Assembly (NCBI GenBank): GCA_030429345.1
Contig: JAUIFJ010000003.1
Span: 62,001-126,000, forward strand
DNA: 64,000 nt
Origin: a bacterium
Lineage (GTDB): Bacteria; CAIWAD01
Reading direction: 5' to 3'
Below the pieces are notes generated by a model. That model was given only the letters and a program-made list of their open reading frames with translations. It searched no databases and was not told where the DNA came from. Position 1 is the stretch's first letter, and every line of letters starts with the position of its first letter. Positions 43,174 through 57,487 of this stretch are shown in pieces. Made by a program: the position numbers and the translations under genes.

Positions 43174-44679
43174 TTACAGCAGGCAGGGCCGCAGGAACTG
43201 CGCCTGGCGCAGGGCCAGCTGGACAATGGTGAAGCTCGGATTGGCGTAGCCGCAGCGGGGAAACAGGCTGCTGCCGGCAACGAAGAGATTGTCCAGCCCG
43301 TGCACGCGCCCCTGCGGATCACAGACTCCCACCATGGGATCCTGGCTGATGCGGGTGGTGCCCATATGATGATGCCCAGCCAGCTCCTCCTGCGGAAAGA
43401 GGGGAAAGTGGTCATCCTCCTCCAGCAGCCATTCCGGGAGCCGCAGGCGGGCGATGCCGCAGAGGGCCAGCTCCTGGCCCATGCGCAGGGCCTGGCGGCG
43501 CAGCAGGTCCTTGTCTTCCCGCTGCAGCTTCCAGTCCAGCGTGGGACGGCGCAGTCCCAACTCGTCCACCTCGCTGCCCAGGCGGACGCGGCTCTGCGGG
43601 CGCTGGGGCTGTTCCGCCGCTCCCTTCAGCACGCCGTCGCCGCAATGCAGGGCTTCGCCTCGCAGGTTCTCCACCAGGTCGCGGCTCCAGTCCCGGGCGC
43701 AGAGCAGCCGTTTCAGGCGGCCGCGGAAGGTGTCGCTGTTCGCGGGATCCCAGGCCTCGAAGCGCAGGCCGATGGCTCCCGCCTGTCGCGCCTCCCCCGG
43801 CAGGGGCGCCAGATAGCGGTGGCAGGCCAGCGGATCCAGGGCCTGCCGAGCCTGGCGCAGGGCGCGCAGGGCGTGGTCCTCCAGCACGAAGGCGCCGAGC
43901 ACGAAATGCGGGTGCTCGCTGAAACAGGCCCCCAGCAGCCCGCCCTGGTCGCCGGGCGCGCCGCCGGCGGGCAGGCTCTGGTTGAGCAGGAAGCGCGGGT
44001 TCTCGATGCCGCCCATGGCCAGAACCAGCGCGCGGGCCTTCAGCTTGCGGGGCGCCTGTCCGAAAGCCCTCACGCGCAGATGGGATACACGGGAGCGCTC
44101 GAAGTCCAGTCCGACCAGGTTGGCGCCCAGCAGGACCTGCAGCGCGCTTCGGTCGCGCAGCAGGTCCGCGAAGCGCGCGGCAAACCGGGTCGGCGGGCTG
44201 AAGCGGAAAGGAGCGTTTCCGAAGGAAGGCAATCCGGCAAAGAGCTCTTCCCAGGCCCGCGCGGCAGGAGGCGTTTCCGCAAGGGCGGGAAGCTCGAGGA
44301 TCTCCGAGGCCTTCTCGGCCCAGGGCTCCAGCTCCTGAATGCCGAAGGGCCAGCCGGGCAGCTCGCCCGACGGCGGGGCGTCGAAATCCTCCGCGTCCAG
44401 GGGCCGGCACCAGCCGGCCCAGTGGTTGGAACTCCCGCCCAGGAAGCGCAGGCGCGTCTGGACCAGGGGGAAATAGGGGTGCCCGTCGATCCGGCCGGCG
44501 TATACATCCTGCGAACGCGGGTCGTAGTGCTCCCCGCCGCCCTCCAGCAGCAGCACCGGCAGGTCTTCGGGAAGAGAGGCCGCCAGGGTGATGCCCGCCA
44601 TGCCCGCGCCGGCGATCACCAGGGGCCACTCGCGCCCCTCCAGCTCCCCCGGCCGAAGATCCCGCAGGCGTCGTATCAC
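43174..44679 (-). CDS. GMC-type FAD-dependent oxidoreductase
   Basis: Oxidoreductase of 501 aa. The FAD-binding IAGAGMAG motif is at residues 20-27, LGGSSNHWAGW near 85, and the C-terminal GHHHMGTTRIS and CGYANPSFTIVQ segments carry the catalytic histidine region of the GMC/gluconate dehydrogenase group. The GTG start overlaps the TGA of the upstream twin-arginine gene (GTGA), so the two are translationally coupled. In this exopolysaccharide operon it may oxidise a sugar residue, but the substrate is unknown. It has no signal peptide of its own. Confidence 0.87.
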   Translation of the reverse strand: MIRRLRDLRPGELEGREWPLVIAGAGMAGITLAASLPEDLPVLLLEGGGEHYDPRSQDVYAGRIDGHPYFPLVQTRLRFLGGSSNHWAGWCRPLDAEDFDAPPSGELPGWPFGIQELEPWAEKASEILELPALAETPPAARAWEELFAGLPSFGNAPFRFSPPTRFAARFADLLRDRSALQVLLGANLVGLDFERSRVSHLRVRAFGQAPRKLKARALVLAMGGIENPRFLLNQSLPAGGAPGDQGGLLGACFSEHPHFVLGAFVLEDHALRALRQARQALDPLACHRYLAPLPGEARQAGAIGLRFEAWDPANSDTFRGRLKRLLCARDWSRDLVENLRGEALHCGDGVLKGAAEQPQRPQSRVRLGSEVDELGLRRPTLDWKLQREDKDLLRRQALRMGQELALCGIARLRLPEWLLEEDDHFPLFPQEELAGHHHMGTTRISQDPMVGVCDPQGRVHGLDNLFVAGSSLFPRCGYANPSFTIVQLALRQAQFLRPCLL

Positions 44680-44888
44680 AGGAAGCGCTCCCTTGCCCGC
44701 GGCCGGTCCTCGCCGAGCAGCTTCAGGTCCTCTTCCAGCAGAAGGGTCGTGCCCGCCAGCAGGCAACGGCGTGTCGGGGCGGGTCGCGGCAGAAGGGGCG
44801 GGGGCAGCGGAGGCAGCAGCGCCAGCCCCAGGCCGCCGGCCAGCAGCCGCAGCATGCGGCGCCGCGTGATGCAGGCTGCGTCGCTCAT
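44676..44888 (-). CDS. Tiny twin-arginine leader protein coupled to the oxidoreductase
   Basis: A 70-aa product with a Tat-type signal (ITRRRMLRLLAGGLGLALL) followed by a Pro-rich stretch and about 30 mostly polar residues. Its ATG overlaps the sugar transferase stop (ATGA) and its TGA overlaps the GMC start (GTGA). GMC dehydrogenases often have a small Tat-exported subunit (about 180 aa) that carries them across the membrane; this may be a minimal version. A remnant of a longer gene is the alternative. Confidence 0.6.
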   Translation of the reverse strand: MSDAACITRRRMLRLLAGGLGLALLPPLPPPLLPRPAPTRRCLLAGTTLLLEEDLKLLGEDRPRARERFL

Positions 44889-46279
44889 CGTCCCAGGCCC
44901 CGCACCACGGTCCGCAGGGTGAAGAGCAGGATCTTCAGGTCCAGGCCGATGCTCATGTTCTCCAGGTAGAAGAGGTCCAGCCGCAGCTTGTCCTCGATCT
45001 GTCTCACGCTCTGGTCGTAGTGCTGCTTGACCTGGGCCCAGCCCGTCAGTCCCGGGCGGACATTGTGGCGGCGCGCGTAGAGCGGCCAGCGGCGAATGTA
45101 GTCCTCGACGAACTCGCGGCGTTCGGGGCGCGGGCCGACCAGGCTCATCTGCCCCAGCAGGATGTTGAGGAACTGCGGCCACTCGTCGAGACGGTAGCGG
45201 CGCATCCAGCGCCCCGGCGCCAGGATCCGCGGATCCTCGTCCCCGGCGCAGGGCGCGCCGCGGTCATCGGCGTCCGGCACCATGGTGCGGAACTTGTAGA
45301 GCGTGAAATCCCGGTCCCCCCGCCCCGTACGGCGCTGGCGATGGATCACGCCGCCGCCCGGCGAGACCCGCCGCAGGACGAGCGGCCAGATCAGGAACAG
45401 GGGCAGCCCGAGCACCAGCAGCACCGCCGAGACGCCCAGGTCGAGCAGGCGTTTGAGCAGGAACTGCCAGGGGGCCATCAGGTGCGGGAAGACGCGGATC
45501 AGCGGCAGGCCCCAGATGTCCTGTGACTTGTGGCTGCCCAGCACCAGCTCCTGCAGGTCGGGCACGATCTGGACCTCGATCCCCCGTCTCACGCAGACCG
45601 AGATGACGTGATACAGCACCTCGCGGTTCCCCGTGGCGACGATGCACTCCTTGACCGGCAGCCGGTCGGCCAGCTCTTCCAGGTCCTGCAACCCGCCGAG
45701 CACGGGGGCTTCATCGCTCTCCGGGACCTCGTCGTTCTCCGGCAGGCGCAGAAGCCCCAGCAGGCCATAGCCCATGCCCGGGTGGCGGCGGAACTGCCGC
45801 GCCAGGTCGCGGCCCCTCTCCCCGGCGCCGATGACCAGGCAGGGGCGCAGGCCGTGGCCGCGCTCGAGCAGTCGCTTCTGCGCCGTGCGGAAGAGCACCC
45901 TCCCCGCGCCGGCGCCCAGGAAGACCACGCCGCCGTAGACGAGCAGGTTCCCCCGTCCGGCGCTTAGAAGCCCGCTCTGCGGATCGAAGGTGATCACGAA
46001 GAGCAGGACCATGCCGGTGAAGACGCTGGCGCCCACCTGCTGCAGGCTGCGGAAACGGCTCACGTGGTAGAGTTTGCGGTAGAGGCCGCGCAGGGCGAAG
46101 ATCGCCAGCCAGAAGGCCAGCAGCAGTCCGTGGACCTGCATCGGCATGCTGAAGGGCTCGGGGTCGTCGAAGAGGCCCGAGCGATAGCGCAGCCACCAGC
46201 TGAGCATTGTCGCCGAGGTGATGCTGGCGGCATCCGCCAGCAGCAGGAAGAAGCGCTCGCTGTCGAGTCTGCGTGTCAT
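44885..46279 (-). CDS. Polyprenyl-phosphate sugar-1-phosphate transferase (WbaP/WcaJ-type)
   Basis: Inner-membrane glycosyl-1-phosphate transferase of 464 aa that starts exopolysaccharide repeat units on undecaprenyl phosphate. Four N-terminal transmembrane helices, a CoA-binding-like Rossmann part (VIGAGERGRDLA), one further helix near residue 275, and the catalytic bacterial sugar transferase domain with YKFRTM, RRYRLDEWPQFLN, MSLVGPRPE and PGLTGWAQV. It follows the SLBB export gene by 19 nt and overlaps the twin-arginine gene by 4 nt. Confidence 0.93.
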   Translation of the reverse strand: MTRRLDSERFFLLLADAASITSATMLSWWLRYRSGLFDDPEPFSMPMQVHGLLLAFWLAIFALRGLYRKLYHVSRFRSLQQVGASVFTGMVLLFVITFDPQSGLLSAGRGNLLVYGGVVFLGAGAGRVLFRTAQKRLLERGHGLRPCLVIGAGERGRDLARQFRRHPGMGYGLLGLLRLPENDEVPESDEAPVLGGLQDLEELADRLPVKECIVATGNREVLYHVISVCVRRGIEVQIVPDLQELVLGSHKSQDIWGLPLIRVFPHLMAPWQFLLKRLLDLGVSAVLLVLGLPLFLIWPLVLRRVSPGGGVIHRQRRTGRGDRDFTLYKFRTMVPDADDRGAPCAGDEDPRILAPGRWMRRYRLDEWPQFLNILLGQMSLVGPRPERREFVEDYIRRWPLYARRHNVRPGLTGWAQVKQHYDQSVRQIEDKLRLDLFYLENMSIGLDLKILLFTLRTVVRGLGR

Positions 46280-46298
46280 CTCATGCCTTGCCGGAAGG

Positions 46299-47903
46299 CT
46301 AGAGACCCTGAGTGACCAGCACGATCGTCAGGATCTGGGTGGCGATGGTCAGGGACTCCTTGAAGATCTCGTAGGCGGTGAGCGGCTCCTCGTAGGGCAC
46401 GAAGATCACGTCGCCCGGCGAGGGCCGGTAGCTCGAGCGCACGGGCACGAACTGGTCCGAGTCCCTTGTGCGCACGCGAATGCGCGAGGTCTGCGCGCCG
46501 CGGATCTTGCCGCCGACAGCGTCCAGGTAGTCGCGGATGCTCCAGTCGTCCCGGTGCACCATGCGCCCCTGGTTGCCGACGGCGCCGACGAGCTCGACGT
46601 CCTCGCTGCGCCGTGTGACAAGCACCTGGTCGCCGTCCTCCAGCACCAGGGATTCCATGTCCTGCAGCGCGCTGTCGTAGTAGATCGAGATGCGCCCGCC
46701 GCTCCCTGTCACACGGGACTTGAGGTAGCTCGTCTCGATCGGGTCCAGGCCGATCAGGGCCGCCTCCTCGCTGCGCACGTAGGCCAGTTCCGGGTCGTGC
46801 AGGTGCTCGCGGTAGATGCGGATCGCGCCCAGGTCGGCGCGCTTGGCGTGGGGCCCGGCCTGCTCGAGCAGCCAGCCCAGGGTCGTCACGCCCGCCTCGA
46901 TGGCGTAGCTGCCGGGGTGCAGCACTTCGCCCTCCACTCGGACCCGGCTGATGAAGATGTCGCCCGCATCGTGGCGGTAGCTGAACTGGTCGCCCGGAGC
47001 GATGCGCAGTTCATGCATCGCCGTGTCCTCCATGCGGAAGGTCCAGCTCTGCACCGGATTGCCCAGCAGGTCCTGGCGATGCAGCTCGAAGGTGCCGCCC
47101 TCCGTGCCGGGCTGCAGGCCGCCCAGCGCCGCCAGCAGGGTTGCCGGCGTGTCCCCCTGGCGGAACTCGACCACTTCCAGGGGCTGGCCGAAGGGGCCGT
47201 CCACGTAGACTTCCGGCCCCGCGAAGGGAATCACGACCCGGTCTCCGCCCTGCAGCAGCGGGTTCTGCGAAAGGTCGCCGGAATGGAAGAAGCGCAGCAT
47301 GTCGAAGCGCAGGCTGTCCTCCTGGCGCAGCAGCAGCAGGTTGCGTCGGGACACCGGCGGCTGGTCCGGCAGGGGCGTGACCAGTCTCACGCGGGAGAGC
47401 ACTTCGCTCAGGCGTGCGGGAAACTCCAGGGCGAGCACCGCCGGCCGCTGGATCGCGCCGCTGGCGTAGACCTTGATGCGGCGCGGCCGCTCGAGCCAGA
47501 GATCCAGGCTGTCCGCCTCGAAGACTTCCGCCATCAGGGGCTCGAGGGCCTTTTCCAGCTCGACCAGGTTGTGTCCGCGGGCGTCGAAGCGCCCCATGGG
47601 AGGAAGCGTCAGCCAGCCGTCGGAGCCGACGCTCAGGCTGCGCTGGGTGCGGGTCGTATTGTAGAGCAGCAGGCCCAGCCGGTCTCCCGGTCCCACCTGG
47701 TATTCGCGGGGATCCAGGGGCTGTTCCCAGGCCTGGGAAGCGCCGGGCGCTTCCAGGCCCCTTTCCCCCGGCTCTTCCGGGCGGACGCCCAGCAGGTCCT
47801 CGATGCCTCGCGGCAGGTCGCGCGACTGCGCCTGCGCCAACAGGGGCAGCAGCAGGAGCAGCCCGATCAGGATTCCACGCGTGCGCGCAGAGCGTCCACC
47901 CAT
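46299..47903 (-). CDS. Polysaccharide export protein with SLBB domains (Wza-like)
   Basis: Exported protein of 534 aa with a signal peptide (about 1-25), a poly_export domain starting at YQVGPGDRLGLLLYN and several SLBB-type repeats (VRVEGEVLHPGSY, VELVGAVGNQG). It ends in a hydrophobic helix (SLTIATQILTIVLV). Proteins of this kind form the outer-membrane or periplasmic channel for exopolysaccharide. No Cys lipobox was seen, unlike classical Wza. The ATG at 47903 has AAGGA upstream and overlaps the rfbB end by 37 nt. Confidence 0.87.
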   Translation of the reverse strand: MGGRSARTRGILIGLLLLLPLLAQAQSRDLPRGIEDLLGVRPEEPGERGLEAPGASQAWEQPLDPREYQVGPGDRLGLLLYNTTRTQRSLSVGSDGWLTLPPMGRFDARGHNLVELEKALEPLMAEVFEADSLDLWLERPRRIKVYASGAIQRPAVLALEFPARLSEVLSRVRLVTPLPDQPPVSRRNLLLLRQEDSLRFDMLRFFHSGDLSQNPLLQGGDRVVIPFAGPEVYVDGPFGQPLEVVEFRQGDTPATLLAALGGLQPGTEGGTFELHRQDLLGNPVQSWTFRMEDTAMHELRIAPGDQFSYRHDAGDIFISRVRVEGEVLHPGSYAIEAGVTTLGWLLEQAGPHAKRADLGAIRIYREHLHDPELAYVRSEEAALIGLDPIETSYLKSRVTGSGGRISIYYDSALQDMESLVLEDGDQVLVTRRSEDVELVGAVGNQGRMVHRDDWSIRDYLDAVGGKIRGAQTSRIRVRTRDSDQFVPVRSSYRPSPGDVIFVPYEEPLTAYEIFKESLTIATQILTIVLVTQGL

Positions 47904-48859
47904 GCGTCGTGTTCCTTGTACCATTGGATCGTGTGTTTCAGGCCGTCCTCGAAGGTGTAGGACGGTTCCCAGCCCAGCTCGCGTCGAATGCGGCCGGCGT
48001 CGATGGCGTAGCGCAGGTCGTGTCCGGGCCTGTCGGCGACATAGGAGATCAGCTCCTCGGGCTGCCCCGTCTCCGCCAGGATGCGCTTGACGATGTCGAT
48101 GTTGCGCCACTCGTTGCTGCCGCCCACGTTGTAGACGGCGCCGCTCCCGGCCTTCGTATACACTTCCCAGATCGCGTCGACATGGTCCTCCACGTGCAGC
48201 CAGTCGCGCACGTTGAGCCCCTTGCCGTATACGGGAAGCTTCTCGCCCCGGCGGGCTTTCCAGATCATCAGCGGAATCAGCTTCTCGGGAAACTGGTAGG
48301 GGCCGTAGTTGTTGCTGCAGCGCGTGATCACCGTGTCCAGCCCGAAGGTCCTGCGCCAGGCCCCGACCAGCAGGTCGGCGGAAGTCTTCGAGGCGCTGTA
48401 GGGGCTGGAGGGCGCCAGCGGCGTGTCCTCGCGGAAGTAGTCGCCGCTGTCGCCCAGGTCCCCGTAGACCTCGTCGGTGGAGACCTGGTGGAAGCGCAGC
48501 TTGCGGCCGTGCTTCTTCTCTTCCTGTCTCACGGCATCCAGCAGCACGCGCACGCCAAGGATGTTGGTGCGCAGGAAGACGTCCGGGTCCTCGATGCTGC
48601 GGTCCACGTGGCTCTCGGCGGCGAAATTGATCACGCCTTCCACGCGGGCCACCAGCTCGCCGACAAGGGACTCGTCCAGAATGTCTCCATGGACGAAGGT
48701 GTGCCGCGGGTCGGCATCCAGCGAGGCCAGGCTTTCCCGGCAGCCGGCATAGGTCAGGGCGTCCAGGTTGATCAGCTCGAGCTCCGGCAGGCGCTGAAGC
48801 ATGCGCAGCACGAAGTTGGCGCCGATGAAGCCGGCGCCGCCCGTTACCAGCAGTCTCAC
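47867..48859 (-). CDS. rfbB: dTDP-glucose 4,6-dehydratase
   Basis: SDR-type dehydratase of 330 aa making dTDP-4-keto-6-deoxyglucose, precursor of rhamnose and other deoxysugars. The NAD motif GGAGFIG, the catalytic STDEVYGDL and the YSASK pair (Tyr, Lys) are intact, along with AAESHVDRS and GPYQFPEKLIP. The GTG start overlaps the TGA of the upstream membrane gene (GTGA). No rfbA, C or D is in the window; they must be elsewhere if rhamnose is made. Confidence 0.95.
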   Translation of the reverse strand: MRLLVTGGAGFIGANFVLRMLQRLPELELINLDALTYAGCRESLASLDADPRHTFVHGDILDESLVGELVARVEGVINFAAESHVDRSIEDPDVFLRTNILGVRVLLDAVRQEEKKHGRKLRFHQVSTDEVYGDLGDSGDYFREDTPLAPSSPYSASKTSADLLVGAWRRTFGLDTVITRCSNNYGPYQFPEKLIPLMIWKARRGEKLPVYGKGLNVRDWLHVEDHVDAIWEVYTKAGSGAVYNVGGSNEWRNIDIVKRILAETGQPEELISYVADRPGHDLRYAIDAGRIRRELGWEPSYTFEDGLKHTIQWYKEHDAWVDALRARVES

Positions 48860-50784
48860 GAGGACCTCTGTTCGCGTCGTCCCTGGACCGCCAGGGCCAG
48901 GATGATCACCACCAGGGCGCCGACCGCGATCTTCGGATAGATCAGCAGGTCCTGCATGCGGCCGATGGCCAGGCTGATGCGTCCCATGACCGTGTAGCCG
49001 AAGCTGGCTCCGAAGCTCATCATCAGGAAGGCGATGCCGATCTTCGAGACCACGCCCAGGCCGCCGGTCTGCTTCTTCGAGAAGAAGAAGTAGAAGACAC
49101 CGGTGCAGACACCGACGACCACCAGCAGGTTGCTGAGGATCTCGATGAAGATGCGCAGCCCCAGGTTGTGAGACGGATTCTGCAGGTCCATGCCCACCAG
49201 CCCCAGCAGTCCCTGGCTGAAGCGGCCGAAGCGGCTGGCCGTGCCGTCCTCCAGGCCTTCGACGAGGGCCGGCATGTCAAAGGGTTCCGCACGGAAGGCG
49301 CGGATCTCCTCGTCGCTGTAGGAGGTCAGCAGCTTGCTGCCGGTGAAGAGCGCAGCGCCGTCGGACAGCACGCGGCGATGCAGTCCCAGCGCCTGCCGCG
49401 GCAGGTCGCTCAGCCAACCGGCCAGCACCAGGCGCTGCAGGGAAAGCCTCTGGTCTTCGCCCAGGTGATACTCGCCGAGCAGCAGGGCGTCCAGCGAGCC
49501 CAGGCGCAGCTCCAGCTCTTCCTGCAGGCTTCGGCCCTGGCCCGCCGCATCCAGCCGCGCGCGCAGGTCTTCCACCTGCTCCGAGGTCCAGTTGCGCAGC
49601 TGCTCGGGACGCGGATTGCGCGATTTGAGCAGGCTGTCGACCACGACAACCGTACGCTGGTCGTTCCAGTCCAGGGTGGTGCCCGGCGCGAAGGCGCCGG
49701 CCTTGTAGAGTTCCCAGAAATGGCTGCGGCCGGCAGGGCGTGTCAGGGCGTCGGCCGCGTCGCGGGCCTGCTCCGCGGACAGGCCGTTTTCCTGCAGCCG
49801 CTTCGCAAGGGCCGTCTCCGCCGGCAGGTTTTCCACGTGTACACGCAGCAGCAGCCCGTAGAGCTCGTCCTGCCAGGCCGGCAGCTCCAGGGCGGGCAGG
49901 GGCAGGGGAACCTGCGCGCCGTCGGCGCCGAGCCATTCATCGAAGGAGGGCAGGGGCATGGGATCCGCGGGATCCATTCCGCCGAGACGCGTCAGCAGCG
50001 CCCGGTCCAGGGATTCACCGCCGAGGGAGTTGCAGAGCTGCATCTCGAAGCTCCGCGCGTCCTCGACCACCTGGGCCACGCGCGGCCCCAGCTCGCGAAA
50101 GAAGGCCCGCGGCATGTCGCGGAACAGACGACTGTTGCCCGCGTCGGCCAACAGCTCCTCTTCGACCCAGGGCATGAGGGCCGTGCCTGCGCGATCCCCA
50201 TACCAGGCGCTGAAGTGCTGCTGGAGCTCCACGCGCCGGGCTTCCATTTCGAGGGCCGGAAAGGCATCGCTTTTCGTCAGCAGCTCCTCGACGATCTCCC
50301 GGCCGCTGAAGTCCTTCATGGTCGCCTGCAGCTGCGGGACCAGGCTGCCCTGGGCCGCCTGGATCACCTGGATGCCGGCGAAGGCGCCGATCACATAGGC
50401 CAGCGGCCAGCGGCTGACCCAGTGCAGGCGCTTGGTGACCTTGAAGAGCATCATGATGCCCAGCACCAGAAAAAGCAGGTAGATCCAGTGGGTGTAGCCC
50501 AGCTGGTCGGCGAAACCGGGATCGTAGCTCGTGTACTCGGCCGGGCTGATTTCCCCCGCCAGGAACATGCGCTGGATGAGCACGCTCTCCGGGATCCACA
50601 GCCGGTCCCACAGGTTGGGAGTCAGCACCTGCGTCCAGACCATGACCACGCCATAGCCGGCGCTGACGCCGACGAAGACATGCTCGGCGAACTTGTAGAG
50701 CGGATTGTCGCGGTAGAGGAAGCTGAAGATCATCAGCGTGGAGGCGCAGATCAGCAGCGCCCCAATGATGTCGAGGCTGAACAC
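48856..50784 (-). CDS. Uncharacterised membrane protein, fourth gene of the membrane cassette
   Basis: Membrane protein of 642 aa. Five or so helices occupy the first 170 residues (IIGALLICASTLMIFSF, GYTHWIYLLFLVLGIMMLF, YVIGAFAGIQVIQ), then a large soluble helical part of about 370 residues, and three helices near the end (residues 550-635). The GTG start (50784) shares one base with the TAG of the upstream gene, and its TGA overlaps the rfbB GTG. No enzyme motif is recognised. The family appears, from memory, to recur with the other three genes in FCB-type and related bacteria. Confidence 0.7.
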   Translation of the reverse strand: MFSLDIIGALLICASTLMIFSFLYRDNPLYKFAEHVFVGVSAGYGVVMVWTQVLTPNLWDRLWIPESVLIQRMFLAGEISPAEYTSYDPGFADQLGYTHWIYLLFLVLGIMMLFKVTKRLHWVSRWPLAYVIGAFAGIQVIQAAQGSLVPQLQATMKDFSGREIVEELLTKSDAFPALEMEARRVELQQHFSAWYGDRAGTALMPWVEEELLADAGNSRLFRDMPRAFFRELGPRVAQVVEDARSFEMQLCNSLGGESLDRALLTRLGGMDPADPMPLPSFDEWLGADGAQVPLPLPALELPAWQDELYGLLLRVHVENLPAETALAKRLQENGLSAEQARDAADALTRPAGRSHFWELYKAGAFAPGTTLDWNDQRTVVVVDSLLKSRNPRPEQLRNWTSEQVEDLRARLDAAGQGRSLQEELELRLGSLDALLLGEYHLGEDQRLSLQRLVLAGWLSDLPRQALGLHRRVLSDGAALFTGSKLLTSYSDEEIRAFRAEPFDMPALVEGLEDGTASRFGRFSQGLLGLVGMDLQNPSHNLGLRIFIEILSNLLVVVGVCTGVFYFFFSKKQTGGLGVVSKIGIAFLMMSFGASFGYTVMGRISLAIGRMQDLLIYPKIAVGALVVIILALAVQGRREQRSS

Positions 50785-51644
50785 TACTTGCCCCCCCGCT
50801 TGCGTGTGCCGAAATAGGCCACATTGCCCAGGAAAATGAAGAGGATGATCAACAGGTGGCCGAAGCTCTGGGCCGCCATGCCCTTCGTCGCCGCGCCGCC
50901 CTCGATGCCGACCAGGGTCTCGTAGTCGGCGCTGCCCTTCATGCCGCCGGCCAGGCCGATCAGCTGTCCGCTTTCGTAGTACGGAATGTTGTCCGGCGCC
51001 ATCACCGCGGTGCAGGAGGCGGCCATGGTCAGGCCGAAACGGCCCTGGGCCGTCTCCACCCACTCCTTGGTGCCCGGGCTGCCGCCGCTCACGTTGATGA
51101 AGAGGTCGAAATCGCCCAGCTTCTTCAGCTGGCGCATCAGCGGCACCTGGCCGATGGGCGTGCCGTCATAGGTCACGGGAAAGGTCGAATGGATGTTCTC
51201 GCCCATGCTGAGCATCACCAGCTGGCGGCCATCCTTGTAGCCCAGGTTGACATAGTCGATGCCCTGCTCGAGCCCCATGTCGCGAATGCCCTCCTGCTCG
51301 AGGGCCAGGGTGATCGCCTGTCCGACCAGCGGCGGCGCCGCCGGCCAGAGGCAGCTGATCACCACGTTGATGTCCTTGCGGAAGAGGTGCTGGAAGAGCG
51401 CTTCGGTGAAGGGCTGCAGCTCGGGCTTGCTGCCCGGGTCGTAGTCGCAGCTGACGATCACGTTGTCGCCGGCGTCCAGATCCTCGATGGCCTCGTAGAT
51501 CGCCTCGACGGCAGGGTCCGTGGTGAAGGGCAGGCTCTGGTCCAGCAGCAGGGGGACCAGGATGCAGATCGCCATGAAGGAGAAGATCCAGCGGCGGTCC
51601 AGGGTGAGGATGCGGTTGAGGAACCGCAGAATCGCGTGCCACAT
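50784..51644 (-). CDS. Uncharacterised membrane-anchored Rossmann-like protein, third gene of the membrane cassette
   Basis: Protein of 286 aa with one transmembrane helix at each end (about 17-35 and 262-280) and a soluble alpha/beta domain between (NVIVSCDYDPGSKPE, INVVISCLWPAAPP, FDLFINVSGGSPGT). The domain looks like a nucleotide- or ligand-binding Rossmann-like fold, but no P-loop or GxGxxG motif is present. It starts directly after the stop of the second cassette gene and its own stop shares a base with the start of the fourth. Confidence 0.7.
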   Translation of the reverse strand: MWHAILRFLNRILTLDRRWIFSFMAICILVPLLLDQSLPFTTDPAVEAIYEAIEDLDAGDNVIVSCDYDPGSKPELQPFTEALFQHLFRKDINVVISCLWPAAPPLVGQAITLALEQEGIRDMGLEQGIDYVNLGYKDGRQLVMLSMGENIHSTFPVTYDGTPIGQVPLMRQLKKLGDFDLFINVSGGSPGTKEWVETAQGRFGLTMAASCTAVMAPDNIPYYESGQLIGLAGGMKGSADYETLVGIEGGAATKGMAAQSFGHLLIILFIFLGNVAYFGTRKRGGK

Positions 51645-52265
51645 CTAGTTGTCCCCTCCCAGGTAGCTGCGTTCCAGACCGAGGATCACGCGCAGGCCGG
51701 TCGAGATGGCTCCCAGCGCGGCGCCGATCAGGATCGCGCGCTTGCCGGCCAGGTTGGGAAAGTTCATGATCCAGTCGCTGATGTCGGGAAAGGCGCCCCA
51801 GATCGATTCGCCCAGCGGAATGCGGCCCATCATCACGAAGGAGGCGCAGACCAGCAGCAGCGTCGCTTCCATGCTGCGGGCGCGGAAGGCGCGGAAGGCG
51901 GCACTGGCAATGTAGAAGGCCAGCAGGCTGAACATGGTCGCCTGCAGCGGCACGTAGAGCTTGAGATACATCCAGTCGAAGGGCGTGCCCGGTGTGACAC
52001 CCCAGAAGCCGAGCACGATCATCAGCGTCAGGCTGGCCAGCAGGGCCACTTTGTGGATCACATCCTGCCCGCGGCGGATCTTCTTCAGGTTGACGAAGAT
52101 CACGCTGTAGAGGCCCAGGATGTAGGTGAAGGCCATGATGATGATGCCGCCGTTGAACAATGTCTCACGGCTTTCCCGCACCCACGGGATCCCGCCGGCG
52201 AAGTTCTCGAAGATCATCCACGCTCCCAGCAGGAAGGTGATGATCAGGGGGATTTCCTTTTTCAT
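51645..52265 (-). CDS. Uncharacterised multi-span membrane protein, second gene of the membrane cassette
   Basis: Integral membrane protein of 206 aa with about six helices (IPLIITFLLGAWMIFENF, GIIIMAFTYILGLYSVIFV, VALLASLTLMIVLGFWGV and others). It begins 15 nt after the first cassette gene and abuts the third with no gap. No transporter signature is recognised; its tight linkage points to a structural subunit of a membrane complex. Confidence 0.7.
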   Translation of the reverse strand: MKKEIPLIITFLLGAWMIFENFAGGIPWVRESRETLFNGGIIIMAFTYILGLYSVIFVNLKKIRRGQDVIHKVALLASLTLMIVLGFWGVTPGTPFDWMYLKLYVPLQATMFSLLAFYIASAAFRAFRARSMEATLLLVCASFVMMGRIPLGESIWGAFPDISDWIMNFPNLAGKRAILIGAALGAISTGLRVILGLERSYLGGDN

Positions 52266-52280
52266 CCGTTCGTGTCCTGC

Positions 52281-53162
52281 CTAGATGTGGAACCAGTTGA
52301 GGAAGTTCTTCGGCTGGAAGCTTTCGGTGTGCAGCCCCATGTTGTCCAGCGTCAGGGCCAGGCTGCCGATCAGGATCAGCGCGATGCAGATCACCTTGAA
52401 CCAGTCGGTGGCCTTCAGGTTGCTGAGCAGTTTCGGATCACGGCTCAGGTAGGCCGAGGCGGCGAAGAGCTCCTCTCCGATCAGCGTGTAGTCGCAGGCG
52501 GCGATGAAGAAGGGCAGCTGTGTCACCTCCGCCGTGCCCGCCACCTGGATCGCCTTGGCCTGGAAGCCGGTCTCGGATAGGATCAGCGACTCGGCGAAGA
52601 AGCGGCCGAGGAAGAGGTTGGCCGCCGGACGCTCGCGCAGCATGATGCCGTTGACGCCGGCGGTGAAGGCGAACTGCTCATCGGAAATGAAGCTGACGTT
52701 TTCCGGCCGGTGATCTTCGGGCAGGCCGGCATTGTAGAAGCCCTGGCGGACCATCTCCTCCGCCACGCTCATCACGAAGGGCACGCGGCAGGGAACGTAG
52801 ATCTCGCTCTTGTAGCGCGCCGTCGTCTCCGAGACCTTGCCCAGGATCAGCATACTGGCAATGGTCTGGATGTCCTGCATGTCCTCGATGCCCGGCACAT
52901 AGAGCAGCGGCCGCCCCATTTCCGTGCAGCGGCCGATGGCCTCCTCGATGGCGTCGATGCCGGCGATGCGGCGGACGAAAAGCGAGTCGGGCTTCTTCCT
53001 GATGCGGTCGTAGAAGTAGAACAGCAGGGCCGTCATCGCCAGAATCACCAGCAGCACGGTCAGGCGGCCGGGTTCCAGCAGGAAGGCCTGCTGCCCCAGG
53101 GCTGCCGGCGCCGCACCCGCGGAGGGCGCGATCAGGGCAGACAACAGGGGGATGGGGGTCAT
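52281..53162 (-). CDS. Uncharacterised membrane protein (DUF6754-like), first gene of the membrane cassette
   Basis: Protein of 293 aa with transmembrane helices near residues 34-50 and 255-275 around a conserved soluble domain (GRPLLYVPGIEDMQDIQT, VMSVAEEMVRQGFYNAG, EQFAFTAGVNGIM). I associate it, from memory and unverified, with the family labelled DUF6754. It heads the nine-gene run that continues into rfbB and the polysaccharide export genes. The ATG at 53162 is preceded by GGAA about 8 nt upstream. No function is known. Confidence 0.7.
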   Translation of the reverse strand: MTPIPLLSALIAPSAGAAPAALGQQAFLLEPGRLTVLLVILAMTALLFYFYDRIRKKPDSLFVRRIAGIDAIEEAIGRCTEMGRPLLYVPGIEDMQDIQTIASMLILGKVSETTARYKSEIYVPCRVPFVMSVAEEMVRQGFYNAGLPEDHRPENVSFISDEQFAFTAGVNGIMLRERPAANLFLGRFFAESLILSETGFQAKAIQVAGTAEVTQLPFFIAACDYTLIGEELFAASAYLSRDPKLLSNLKATDWFKVICIALILIGSLALTLDNMGLHTESFQPKNFLNWFHI

Positions 53163-53289
53163 AGGGGATTCCACTGTGCTGGACGACGGATCCCGGCAGG
53201 CAACTTCCAGCCGGGGCAACCCTTTAAGGTAATGGAAGATGCCTAGGGGGGCAAAGGAAGGGCCGGGGGGCATGGGACAGCTTCTTCGA

Positions 53290-53488
53290 ACGATGATCGT
53301 GCGTGATTCTATTCTCCGCACGAGGATCGTGCGTGAATCTATTCTCCGCACGATGATCGTGCGGCTATATGCAAGGACCGCGATGCGGTCCTCTGGCATG
53401 ACCACCTTGAATGGACAGCGGAAACCATGTCGAAGACAAACGACCGCGTAGCGGTCGCTGCATAAAGCCGCGGGTGAATCCCGCGGAC
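53290..53488. repeat. REP-hairpin block, left copy
   Basis: A 170-nt block repeated directly at 54149-54319. It begins with a 30-bp sub-repeat (ACGATGATCGTGCGTG then AATCTATTCTCCGC; three copies here, two on the right) and carries hairpins at 53349-53363, 53375-53391 (loop GAT), 53441-53457 (loop GTA) and 53468-53486 (loop TGAAT). It lies between the promoter region of the membrane cassette and the transposase stop. Nothing else was seen in 53163-53289 apart from the cassette leader. Confidence 0.9.
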
Positions 53489-53517: not shown

Positions 53518-53994
53518 TCAATCATCCGCATCATCCGGATTCTCCCTGTCGAAGAGGTGGCGGGGGTCGTATTCGATGCCGTTTGATTTCAGCAATGACT
53601 CGTATTCCTCGCGAAAGCTGCGGCTCCTGTGATGCACCTCCTGGTTGCGGATGTAGTTCCTGATGCCGTCGAGCTTTTTGCTGTTGACGCTAAAAGCGGA
53701 ATACCCCCCTTGCCATCGTGGTTTCCCGATTTCCGGATAACACTTTTTCGTCCAGGACAAGCTCGAGAGTTTCAGCTCCCGCACGATGGTACCGAAGGAT
53801 CCATCCGCCGGCATGCGTACCAGCAGGTGTACATGGTCCTCGACACCCCCGATCTCGATCGCTTTCCACCCGTTTGCGCGGAGCACGCCACCCATATATT
53901 CATGCATCCGCCCACGCAACCCGGATTGGATCCAGGGACGGCGACGCCGTGTTCCGAACACCAGGTGTACGATCACATTCGTAAACGAGCCCAA
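53518..53994 (-). CDS. REP-associated tyrosine transposase (Y1/IS200-like TnpA)
   Basis: Transposase of 158 aa, HUH type. The metal-binding DHVHLLV motif lies near residue 54, and the catalytic tyrosine is expected in GIRNYIRNQE near residue 115. The second half (WQGGYSAFSVN, EEYESLLKSNGIEYD) matches the Y1_Tnp group. The TTG start at 53994 follows GGAGG by 4 nt. The gene appears intact. The 154 nt between it and the right REP block carry no other gene. Confidence 0.88.
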   Translation of the reverse strand: MGSFTNVIVHLVFGTRRRRPWIQSGLRGRMHEYMGGVLRANGWKAIEIGGVEDHVHLLVRMPADGSFGTIVRELKLSSLSWTKKCYPEIGKPRWQGGYSAFSVNSKKLDGIRNYIRNQEVHHRSRSFREEYESLLKSNGIEYDPRHLFDRENPDDADD

Positions 53995-54337: not shown

Positions 54338-57300
54338 CTACTCCCTCTGCATCGAAGGCGCCGGCGCTCCCGCAGCCTTGACGCGCCGGCTCATGAGCCT
54401 GCCGCGCAGGTCGCGCAGGAAATTGCCCAGGTCGTCGACGAGTGTATACACCAACGGGATCACGATCAGGGTCGAGAGCGTGCTCACCAGCAGGCCGCCC
54501 ATCATGGCGCGGCCCATGGGGGCGTAGGGCATGCCGATCAGGGCGGCGTTGCCGACGGCCATCGGGATCAGGCCGCAGACGGTGGTGGCGGCGGTCATCA
54601 TCACGGGGCGGAAGCGCTGGCGGTTGGCGGTCAGCAGGGCCTCGTGGCGCGGCATGCCGCCGCGCTGCAGGCGTACGACAAGGTCGATCAGCACAATGGC
54701 GTTGTTGACCACGATACCCATCAGGATCACGACCCCGATGCCGGCCATCATGTCGAAACTGCTCCCTGTAATCAAAAGGGCCCATTGCGCGCCCCAGAAG
54801 GCGAAGGGCAGGCTGGCCAGGATGGTCAGGGGCAGCATGAAGGACTCGAAGAGCACGCCCATCAGCAGGAAGACGAAGCTGACCGCCAGCAGGAGCGCCA
54901 GCTGCTGGCTGTTCTGCTGCTCGCGCAGGCGGTCGAAGAAGCGCCCGAAGCTCCAGTCGTAGCCCGCCGGGAAATCCAGGCCGTCCATCACCTGGCGGAT
55001 CGACTCGTTGACGCCGTCCTGGTCTTTCGTATCCCCGACGATCTTCAGCCGCATGAAGCTCTTGCCCGAACTGCGACGGATCGTGCCCAGCGCCGTTTCG
55101 TGCTTCACTTCCACCAGTTCGTCCAGGGGCACCAGGCGCCCGCTGGCGGAGGGGATCTCCAGCTGCTTGAGTTCGCTCAGCTGGTCCCGGTCCTCCTTGG
55201 CCAGCCTGACGCTGGCGTCGAGCTCGCGGCCGCGCTGGCGCAGGTCGGGCAGTTCGTTGCCGGCGAGGGCGTAGCGCACCGTGCCGGCCAGGGTGCTGGC
55301 CTGGATGCCGTTGCGGTCGAGGGCCGCGCGGTCGGCGAGCACGCGCAGTTCCGGGTCGCCCTGCTCCACGTCGAGCTCGGTGGAGATGATGTTGGGCATC
55401 AGCTCGAGGCGGCGGCGCGCCTCCTCGGCCAGGGCCTTGAGGACCGTTGTATCACGCCCGTTGATCGCCACCGTGATCGCGTTCTCGTCGTTGCCGTTGT
55501 TGCCCCAGCCGATGAAGAGGTCGACGCCCGGCACCTCCGGCAGGTTGGCCTCGATGTCCTCGATCACCTCCTCGCGGGTCATCGTCGAGGTCTTGTAGAG
55601 GCCCAGCTTCTGCCCCAGGGTGCGCCCCAGGTGGACATACCAGCTGGCCTGCCCCTCGCTGTGCAGGAAGACCTCCAGCTCGCCCCAGGTGTTCGAGTGG
55701 CGCGAGGTGATGGTCTTGATGTTGTATACATCGGCCTTGGCGCGGATCCCGTCCTCCACCCGCAGCACCAGGCTGTCGGCGTCGGCGAAGGAGTAGGAAG
55801 GCGGCATGCTGAAGTACAACTCGAAATTGTTGATGTTGCCGTCGCCTTCCGCCGACTGCTTGACCAGGTTCTGCGGAATGGCGATCAGCAGGAAGATGCC
55901 GAGCACGACCAGCGCCGTGTCGAAGCGCCGGCGCAGGGCGATGTCGAGCAGATGTGTGACAGCGGCGCTGCTCTTCGTGATCAGCCGGCTTTCGCGCACG
56001 TCGCGGATCGTCTTCATCTTGCTGGCCAGCAGGGGCAGGAAGAGCAGAGCCACCAGCAGCGAGGCCAGCAGGGAGATCACGACCGGCATGCCGATGCGCG
56101 TCATGTAGAAGGAGAAGCCGACGTCGTCCGACATCAGCATCAGCGGCAGGAAGACCACGATCGAGGTCAGCGTGGCCACGGTGACCGCCAGGCCCACTTC
56201 CGCCGCGCCGGCCACGCTGGCCTTGCGCGGATCCTGCGTGTGTTCCCTTTCGGACTGGATGCTCTCCATGACCACGATGGCGTTGTCCACCACCATGCCC
56301 ACGCTGAGCATCAGCCCCATCATCGTGATGATGTTGAGGCTCCAGCCGATGAAGTAGATCCCCGTGATCGTGATGAAGATCGAGAAGGGAATCGCCGCGG
56401 TGATGATCATCGTCATCCGCCAGCGACGCAGGAAGAAGAAGATCACGCCGATGGCGAAGATCCCGCCCCAGAGAGCGCTTTCCTTCAGGTTGTCGATGGA
56501 ATCGCGAATGAAGTCGCCGCGGCTGAAGAGCTTGTTGAAATTGATGCTCTCCATGCGCGGATCCTGCGAGACGCGCTGTAGCACGGCATCCACGTCGCGG
56601 CAGACCTGTTCCGTGTTGGCCGTGCTCTCCTTGGCGATGGCCAGCAGCATGCCCAGTTCGCGGTCGACGCGCATAATCCAGTTGCGCTCCGGCGCGTCGA
56701 TGTGCACGTCGGCAATGTCCTTCAGCCGCAGGGGGCTGCCGCGGATCGGGATCTCGCGCACCTCTTCCACGCCGCGCCAGACCGCGTCGCTGCGCACCGT
56801 GAGACGCCGGCCGCCGTCGAGGATCTCGCCGTTGGTCAGGGCGAAGTTCTCGCTGCGCAGCTGTTCCACCACCTGCCAGGCGCTCAAGCCGTAGCGCGCC
56901 AGGTTCTCCAGGTTCAGGTCGATCAGCAGCTCCTGGTGGTCGCCGCCCCAGAAGTCGACCTTTGCCACGCCGTCCACCTGCTCGATGGGCTTGCGCAGGA
57001 ACTCGTCTACAAGATAGTGCGCTTCCCCGGGGTCCAGTTCGCTCGAGGCCCCCAGGAAGTAGATCGTCTCCCCCATGCCCATGCGCCGGAGTCTCACGCG
57101 CTCGATGCCCAGGTCGACTTCGGCGATCGCGCGGTCGATGCGGTCGCGCAGTTCGTTCCAGGCGACGTCCGTGTCCACTCCGTTGCGGATCTGCAGCCAG
57201 AACCAGACGCCGTGGCTCTGGCTGTAGGACTCCAGGTACTTCAGCCCGCCGACTGTGCGCAGGTGTTCCTCGAAGGGTCGGGAGATCAACTCCTCGATCT

Positions 57301-57487
57301 CCTCCGGCGTCGAATTGGGGTAGGAGACCCAGAAGCCCATCCACGGGGACTTGAAGCCCGAGGGCATCATTTCCAGCGGCACCTTGGTCAGGGCGACGGC
57401 CCCGGTGACGACCAGGGCGATGAAGAGCATCAGCACCGTGACCGGTCGCTTGAGACTGAAGGCGGGGAGCAGGCGATCAAGCTTCAC
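54338..57487 (-). CDS. RND-family efflux transporter (second pump subunit)
   Basis: Inner-membrane RND transporter of 1049 aa with twelve transmembrane helices and two large periplasmic loops. The helix-4 signature GMVVDNAIVVMES holds one proton-relay Asp (AcrB has two), and RND repeats such as FFFLRRWRMTMIITAAIPFS are clear. It is the downstream member of two RND genes; its start overlaps the upstream stop by 11 nt. Two different RND subunits in one operon recall heteromeric MdtBC-type pumps. The substrate is unknown. Confidence 0.93.
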   Translation of the reverse strand: MKLDRLLPAFSLKRPVTVLMLFIALVVTGAVALTKVPLEMMPSGFKSPWMGFWVSYPNSTPEEIEELISRPFEEHLRTVGGLKYLESYSQSHGVWFWLQIRNGVDTDVAWNELRDRIDRAIAEVDLGIERVRLRRMGMGETIYFLGASSELDPGEAHYLVDEFLRKPIEQVDGVAKVDFWGGDHQELLIDLNLENLARYGLSAWQVVEQLRSENFALTNGEILDGGRRLTVRSDAVWRGVEEVREIPIRGSPLRLKDIADVHIDAPERNWIMRVDRELGMLLAIAKESTANTEQVCRDVDAVLQRVSQDPRMESINFNKLFSRGDFIRDSIDNLKESALWGGIFAIGVIFFFLRRWRMTMIITAAIPFSIFITITGIYFIGWSLNIITMMGLMLSVGMVVDNAIVVMESIQSEREHTQDPRKASVAGAAEVGLAVTVATLTSIVVFLPLMLMSDDVGFSFYMTRIGMPVVISLLASLLVALLFLPLLASKMKTIRDVRESRLITKSSAAVTHLLDIALRRRFDTALVVLGIFLLIAIPQNLVKQSAEGDGNINNFELYFSMPPSYSFADADSLVLRVEDGIRAKADVYNIKTITSRHSNTWGELEVFLHSEGQASWYVHLGRTLGQKLGLYKTSTMTREEVIEDIEANLPEVPGVDLFIGWGNNGNDENAITVAINGRDTTVLKALAEEARRRLELMPNIISTELDVEQGDPELRVLADRAALDRNGIQASTLAGTVRYALAGNELPDLRQRGRELDASVRLAKEDRDQLSELKQLEIPSASGRLVPLDELVEVKHETALGTIRRSSGKSFMRLKIVGDTKDQDGVNESIRQVMDGLDFPAGYDWSFGRFFDRLREQQNSQQLALLLAVSFVFLLMGVLFESFMLPLTILASLPFAFWGAQWALLITGSSFDMMAGIGVVILMGIVVNNAIVLIDLVVRLQRGGMPRHEALLTANRQRFRPVMMTAATTVCGLIPMAVGNAALIGMPYAPMGRAMMGGLLVSTLSTLIVIPLVYTLVDDLGNFLRDLRGRLMSRRVKAAGAPAPSMQRE

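Follow-up and report, generated by a model that had tools for sequence, protein, structure and literature searches.

A four-gene membrane unit headed by a DUF6754 protein is conserved across bacterial phyla and accompanied by a MutL-type ATPase and a BSH-KOW protein

Four adjacent genes, here named A, B, C and D, encode the membrane part of a proposed machine that is common to many distantly related bacteria, spread over at least a dozen named phyla. The recurrent partners of A-D are an ASKHA ATPase of the MutL type (PF13941) and a barrel-sandwich hybrid/KOW-like protein (BSH-KOW). In the genome studied here the four genes sit beside sugar-export genes, an arrangement local to this lineage and not a sign of the machine's general job. 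Gene order and co-occurrence suggest that A, B, C and D form one physical complex. The chances are about even that this complex belongs, as the integral-membrane module, to a conserved inner-membrane machine of eight proteins that is powered or gated by ATP.

Results

The nine-gene locus

The window, the whole stretch of DNA that was analyzed, comprises 64,000 nt of contig JAUIFJ010000003.1 (GCA_030429345.1), and the study region within it is 43174-53162. A first-pass annotation had drawn nine minus-strand genes there; all nine reading frames are open with the same boundaries (Table 1) and all eight junctions are as it described them. A and B are separated by 15 nt, B and C by 0 nt, and C and D overlap by 1 nt. 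D runs into rfbB through a GTGA (4-nt overlap), and rfbB overlaps by 37 nt the SLBB gene, which starts at ATG 47903 and continues into a signal peptide. The SLBB and WbaP genes are 19 nt apart, WbaP meets the gene for the 70-aa protein in an ATGA, and the latter meets the GMC gene in a GTGA.

Table 1. Features of the study region, with window coordinates
Feature	Position	Strand	Basis
A, DUF6754 (PF20539) protein, 293 aa	52281..53162	-	Pfam E 1.8e-102
B, six-TM protein, 206 aa	51645..52265	-	Six hydropathy segments, positive-inside loops
C, 286 aa, Rossmann-like domain between two TM helices	50784..51644	-	AF2 model, charge pattern
D, seven-span protein, 642 aa	48856..50784	-	Alignment A5; ~210-aa core conserved across phyla
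Insert in D, ~380 aa, between TM4 and TM5	49150..50292	-	Lacking in relatives outside the window's family
rfbB, dTDP-glucose 4,6-dehydratase	47867..48859	-	TIGR01181, 465 bits
SLBB/Poly_export outer-membrane exporter	46299..47903	-	Pfam SLBB_2, Poly_export
WbaP/EPS-type polyprenyl-phosphate sugar transferase	44885..46279	-	TIGR03025, 367 bits; Bac_transf PF02397
70-aa protein, Tat-like leader RRRMLRLLAGG	44676..44888	-	Sequence only
GMC-type FAD oxidoreductase	43174..44679	-	PF05199 (GMC C-terminal domain), E 4e-19

The DUF6754-like label given to A was borne out by Pfam: A is a full-length member of PF20539, scoring 342.3 bits against a gathering cut-off of 27 and covering positions 8-250 of the 257 in the profile. 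Family matches also agreed with the names given to rfbB, the SLBB exporter, the WbaP-type transferase and the GMC oxidoreductase. The 70-aa protein does have the RRR-leader but no family match, so its label as a Tat mini-protein comes from that leader only. Window proteins B, C and D had no family match in Pfam or NCBIfam, and the relatives of B (47 members, window's included) gave scattered weak family matches only. Only one of the four membrane subunits, A, thus has even a DUF name.

A-B-C-D is a conserved unit

One genome per bacterial or archaeal species was scanned, yielding 362 relatives of A, and sequence was retrieved for the best 80 loci. According to their record titles, these loci come from Delongbacteria, Myxococcota, Deltaproteobacteria, Eisenbacteria, Gemmatimonadetes, Zixiibacteriota, Coatesbacteria, Fermentibacteria, Acidobacteria, TA06, WOR-3, BRC1, Sumerlaeota, Phycisphaerae, Cloacimonadota and Ignavibacterium. 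One A-bearing MAG labelled ANME-2 is probably mis-binned. Of the 72 A copies whose downstream sequence reaches at least 2.7 kb, 67 have B, C and D directly after them on the same strand, and the median A-B, B-C and C-D gaps are 8, 0 and -23 nt. The exceptions number five, two of them tandem A genes. The order A-B-C-D is conserved across phyla and is not due to chance.

Co-occurrence was followed in a set of 244 genomes, the phylum of a Phycisphaerae MAG (Planctomycetota-type). A and C are present in the identical 64 genomes, including some where the two genes are unlinked (3.91 vs 5.87 Mb on contig C1 of G284; 0.29 vs 3.53 Mb on C1 of G209) or on separate contigs (G268, G314 and G364). No DUF6754 protein was found in a control set of 14 well-known genomes. 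The contiguous copies and the shared distribution of A and C uphold the earlier claim that the four proteins are a unit. They are also undescribed, as had been proposed, in the libraries and papers searched, and neither DUF6754 nor PF20539 is named in that literature, from which subscription journals are mostly missing.

Folds, topology and conservation of the membrane subunits

All four proteins had been called membrane proteins, in agreement with their hydrophobic spans: two in A, six in B, two in C and seven in D of the window, and six in B and six to seven in D more generally. Another hydrophobic stretch at the N-terminus of A is possibly a signal sequence. In the AF2 model of A (pLDDT 89.7), alternating helices and strands lie between two TM helices and make up a Rossmann-like domain of ~200 aa with a TM on either side. 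The 20 TM-flanking residues of this domain contain 9 K/R vs 4 D/E, a charge distribution that predicts a cytoplasmic location. The model of C has the same layout, its Rossmann-like domain flanked by two TM helices (pLDDT 96.1, pTM 0.91). Its K/R residues lie at the N- and C-terminal ends and the domain flanks are acidic, from which the domain is predicted to be periplasmic. The N- and C-termini of B are predicted to be cytoplasmic. In many relatives A carries an extra N-terminal domain, predicted to be periplasmic (L016 sequence).

Only within the window's family is D a large protein. Its relatives are ~210 aa long, and the core of the window's D is 46% identical to one of 208 aa. The insert (residues ~165-545), predicted to be periplasmic, is lacking even in a class-level relative (L003), and a piece covering most of it (49280-50370) had no Pfam match. 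Elsewhere, a D homologue at L020:10579-11538 has a helix-hairpin-helix (HHH_3) domain inserted at residues 134-181.

Mean column identity of A across phyla is 51%. Polar residues are invariant in A (E81, Q163, R176, E191, E197, D224, E230 and E231) and in C (D67, E75, D130 and T212), and the short loops of B and D are strongly conserved. Foldseek comparison of the A and C models with the PDB found no relative at E <= 0.001. Matches to SIS-domain proteins, a MoCo carrier, a GT-B fold and an SDR were set aside as generic Rossmann similarity with E > 0.001 and a low TM-score. PDB sequence-profile comparison of A and C likewise gave nothing convincing. A and C have a similar order of helices and strands; as mutual homologues they were rejected by profile comparison (1.5% probability, only a TM stretch aligned). 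B and D were unrelated to each other by the same kind of comparison.

A soluble module accompanies the membrane unit

BSH-KOW is a protein of 377 residues with 60% mean column identity (alignment A1). It is encoded just upstream of A in 28 of the 58 A copies with enough upstream sequence. On its own 5' side are the genes for the MutL/GlmL-type ATPase and for a short membrane-associated protein (sm), often joined by one for a bPH-like protein with two helices, the bPH name being a weak Pfam match. One example of such a gene string is bPH-sm-MutL-BSHKOW-A-B-C-D. The four additional genes are a separable module: they share an operon with A-D in many phyla, and in the window's genome they lie together on another contig (C75, ~182173-186656, minus strand).

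The N-terminal domain of BSH-KOW is a candidate barrel-sandwich hybrid of the RnfC/NqrA type. RnfC_N was matched by 5 of 15 members (best 33.4 bits vs a cut-off of 25.6), NQRA_N was matched marginally, and Pfam support for the KOW-like C-terminus is weak. PF13941 scored 431 bits in the MutL of L016 and 402 bits in that of the window's genome, and was over the cut-off in all five genomes of the window's phylum. PDB sequence-profile comparison of BSH-KOW gave nothing convincing, and MutL had no solved relative by sequence. A locus of MSMEG_0317/LmcA was considered as a parallel for MutL, which the paper on it did not bear out.

Both soluble proteins track A closely. Among A-bearing genomes of many phyla, BSH-KOW was found in 38 of 39, the exception being a 1.9-Mb assembly. 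In the 244-genome set, BSH-KOW was present in 58/64 genomes with A (not detected in the other 6) vs 1/180 without (Fisher p ~5e-48, phylogeny ignored), and MutL was over the cut-off in 60/64 (lacking in 4) vs 6/180 (Fisher p ~7e-45, phylogeny ignored). In a Myxococcota-type set (n=145), a strong A match and BSH-KOW occurred in the same two genomes; one was the seed, and the other has the two genes on different contigs. Several genomes encode two or three full A proteins and one full-length BSH-KOW (e.g., G198, G245, G301, G316, G323 and G390).

Some arrangements depart from the common string. A divergent Myxococcota-type locus (L146:5452-8652, genome G076) has sm first, next an A protein of 1067 aa that includes a long extension at its N-terminus, and then B, C and D; the 18 kb of sequence retrieved for it contains no MutL or BSH-KOW, and no BSH-KOW was detected in that genome. 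Open frames of ~840-990 aa with a partial match to the BSH-KOW profile occur in G016, G017, G024, G026, G027, G030 and G316. The one in G316 overlaps a MutL match, and such long frames are possible MutL-BSH fusions or paralogues.

Polysaccharide-export genes are neighbors in one lineage

The first-pass annotation had linked the four proteins to polysaccharide export. The window's rfbB, SLBB and WbaP proteins were used as queries against the 80 loci from other genomes (E <= 1e-3). An rfbB-like gene was present in 2/80 loci, an SLBB protein in 3/80 and WbaP in 1/80. The unit is thus mostly without export genes elsewhere, the outcome that had been set beforehand as counting against the link. Since these genes are missing from nearly all 80 loci, the general export claim fails, and an export partner was ruled out as a general reading.

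Both loci with rfbB (L002 and L003) belong to the small phylum of the window itself (n=5 genomes). There, rfbB directly follows D in all four loci (G000, G001, G003 and G004). SLBB and WbaP lie further on in G000, G003 and G004, which belong to the window's family; the G001 contig has 2.9 kb remaining, and neither is encoded there. This conserved D-rfbB neighborhood makes a lineage-specific functional coupling possible. Two WOR-3 loci also encode an SLBB protein, immediately upstream of A.

When 90 flanking proteins were compared with Pfam, the families were mixed and none recurred. In Zixibacteria-type genomes a recurrent string has the order ptsI, a phosphosugar isomerase gene, A-B-C-D, a nucleotidyltransferase gene, metK and ahcY (L047, L054, L055, L059, L066, L080 and L081, some of which do not have all parts). 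In an Eisenbacteria-type arrangement (L013, L016 and L021), the full eight-gene set stands between glycine-cleavage genes (gcvT, gcvH and gcvP) and lplA. The latter neighbors suggested lipoylation of the BSH domain. That idea was rejected for want of conservation at the candidate lysine, whose place is taken by threonine in the window's genome.

Discussion

A possible mechanism

In the machine that we propose, B and D, with six to seven spans each, would form the membrane core, as their topology suggests. A would present its Rossmann-like domain to the cytoplasm and C would present one to the periplasm. MutL would bind and hydrolyze ATP as a motor or switch, and BSH-KOW may be the adaptor that docks it at the cytoplasmic face, as NqrA/RnfC-type subunits do on their membrane complexes. 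A-B-D would relay the cycle to C's periplasmic domain, where an envelope ligand might be moved, flipped or released. A single soluble module could serve two or three A-D modules per cell. The window's downstream genes for sugar export would be a later, lineage-specific neighborhood, with the insert of D perhaps a local adaptor.

The substrate is probably envelope-related. Hints at such a ligand come from FadL- and YjbH-like proteins (the latter below the cut-off) encoded after BSH-KOW in the window's class, and from TonB-receptor and ExbBD genes downstream in Fermentibacteria. Counting against this explanation, the housekeeping neighbors in many lineages (ptsI, metK, ahcY and gcv) point to no substrate. 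MutL could also be an enzyme-reactivating chaperone instead of a motor. We suggest only tentatively that this is a new kind of trans-envelope machine driven by ATP, with one shared ASKHA-ATPase/BSH-KOW module that would energize one or several four-subunit membrane modules. The same tentative reading takes in the Rossmann-like domains, for which no close relative is known, on both sides of the inner membrane and the range of a dozen or more phyla.

Other readings of the unit

Among the alternatives, a membrane enzyme is unlikely. A and C would be catalytic on a nucleotide, sugar or lipid, and MutL would be a reactivating chaperone of the ASKHA type. The many invariant polar residues of A and C would suit this reading, as would MutL itself, which is named for the glutamate-mutase operon and is weakly similar to hydantoinase and BadF-type proteins. 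The conserved residues may instead serve assembly, however; neither A nor C matched an enzyme fold (listed TM-scores <=0.34 by query length), and no B12 enzyme is among the recurrent neighbors. It is less probable still that the proteins are a scaffold that positions envelope proteins, with an actin-like MutL tied to a transmembrane frame on a plan like PilM-PilN-PilO or MreB-RodZ. Such a plan is consistent with an ASKHA ATPase alongside bitopic proteins whose domains are predicted to face the periplasm and the cytoplasm, with the additional N-terminal domain of many A relatives and with outer-membrane barrels among the neighbors. The recurrent neighbors include no pilus, secretin or division genes, though, and the conserved loops of B and D suggest more than a frame.

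The explanation in the first-pass annotation, that A-D energize, gate or couple the export of a modified exopolysaccharide that the downstream genes produce, is now distinctly unlikely. The overlap of D with rfbB, the arrangement within the window's phylum and family, the two WOR-3 loci and the YjbH-like protein speak for it. Against it, nearly all of the 80 loci have no such neighbors and the unit elsewhere adjoins gcv, pts, metK or TonB genes; it is MutL and BSH-KOW that co-occur with A-D, while export genes were compared in neighborhoods only. A redox-linked ion pump or electron-transfer complex with an Rnf/Nqr layout, BSH-KOW replacing RnfC/NqrA, is very unlikely. NqrA is a cytosolic, cofactor-free subunit and has a barrel-sandwich N-terminus in common with RnfC (PMC4014512), the RnfC_N and NQRA_N matches of BSH-KOW agree with this layout, and B and D would supply two multi-span subunits. 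Yet only a third of the BSH-KOW members examined matched RnfC_N, the ATPase stands where redox partners would, and the unit has neither NqrB/RnfD nor NqrF/RnfB, nor any Fe-S/flavin subunit. Pfam matched none of B, C and D to Rnf/Nqr subunits; for B and D, alignments of 47 members each (window's included) matched none of RnfA/D/E or NqrB/D/E. A role in anti-phage defence was dismissed after no PADLOC model matched A-D, MutL or BSH-KOW.

Comparison with known systems

The ATP-dependent assembly that we favor fits none of the systems tested, and its parts echo known families (MutL and RnfC_N). Pfam's PF20539 names one subunit, A, whereas the four-gene unit and its link to MutL and BSH-KOW are in no library or paper searched. 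MutL matches the MutL/GlmL of the glutamate mutase operon over the whole domain and belongs to the same family, but here it accompanies BSH-KOW and A-D; the glutamate mutase genes mutS and mutE are not among the recurrent neighbor families. BSH-KOW probably shares the barrel-sandwich hybrid domain with RnfC and NqrA but differs in its KOW-like C-terminus, and neither the redox nor the membrane subunits of Rnf and Na+-NQR were matched by sequence. ECF transporters have a shared energizing module with several membrane partners. The soluble ATPase module inferred here to serve more than one membrane module per cell is similarly separable, but its ATPase is of the ASKHA and not the ABC type, and there is no sequence relation. 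The window resembles Wza/Wzx-type export loci in having rfbB, an SLBB exporter and a polyprenyl sugar transferase after A-D, except that A-D are without such genes in almost all other loci.

Few multi-subunit inner-membrane systems kept over so many phyla are still without an assigned function. The local operon neighborhood alone would have given a wrong functional label, and a lone DUF is now replaced by a defined eight-gene hypothesis. Carriers include genomes assembled as single large contigs, where the system could be deleted and tested.

Sequence upstream of the operon

Three tandem 30-nt repeats lie just upstream of A (window 53282-53371), two of them 87% and 73% identical to the first. 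They are near a gene for an IS200-like transposase (53518-53994, minus strand; PF01797, E 1.2e-23). Beyond the transposase, and also upstream of the operon, is a full RND (AcrB-type) efflux pump gene (54338-57487, minus strand).
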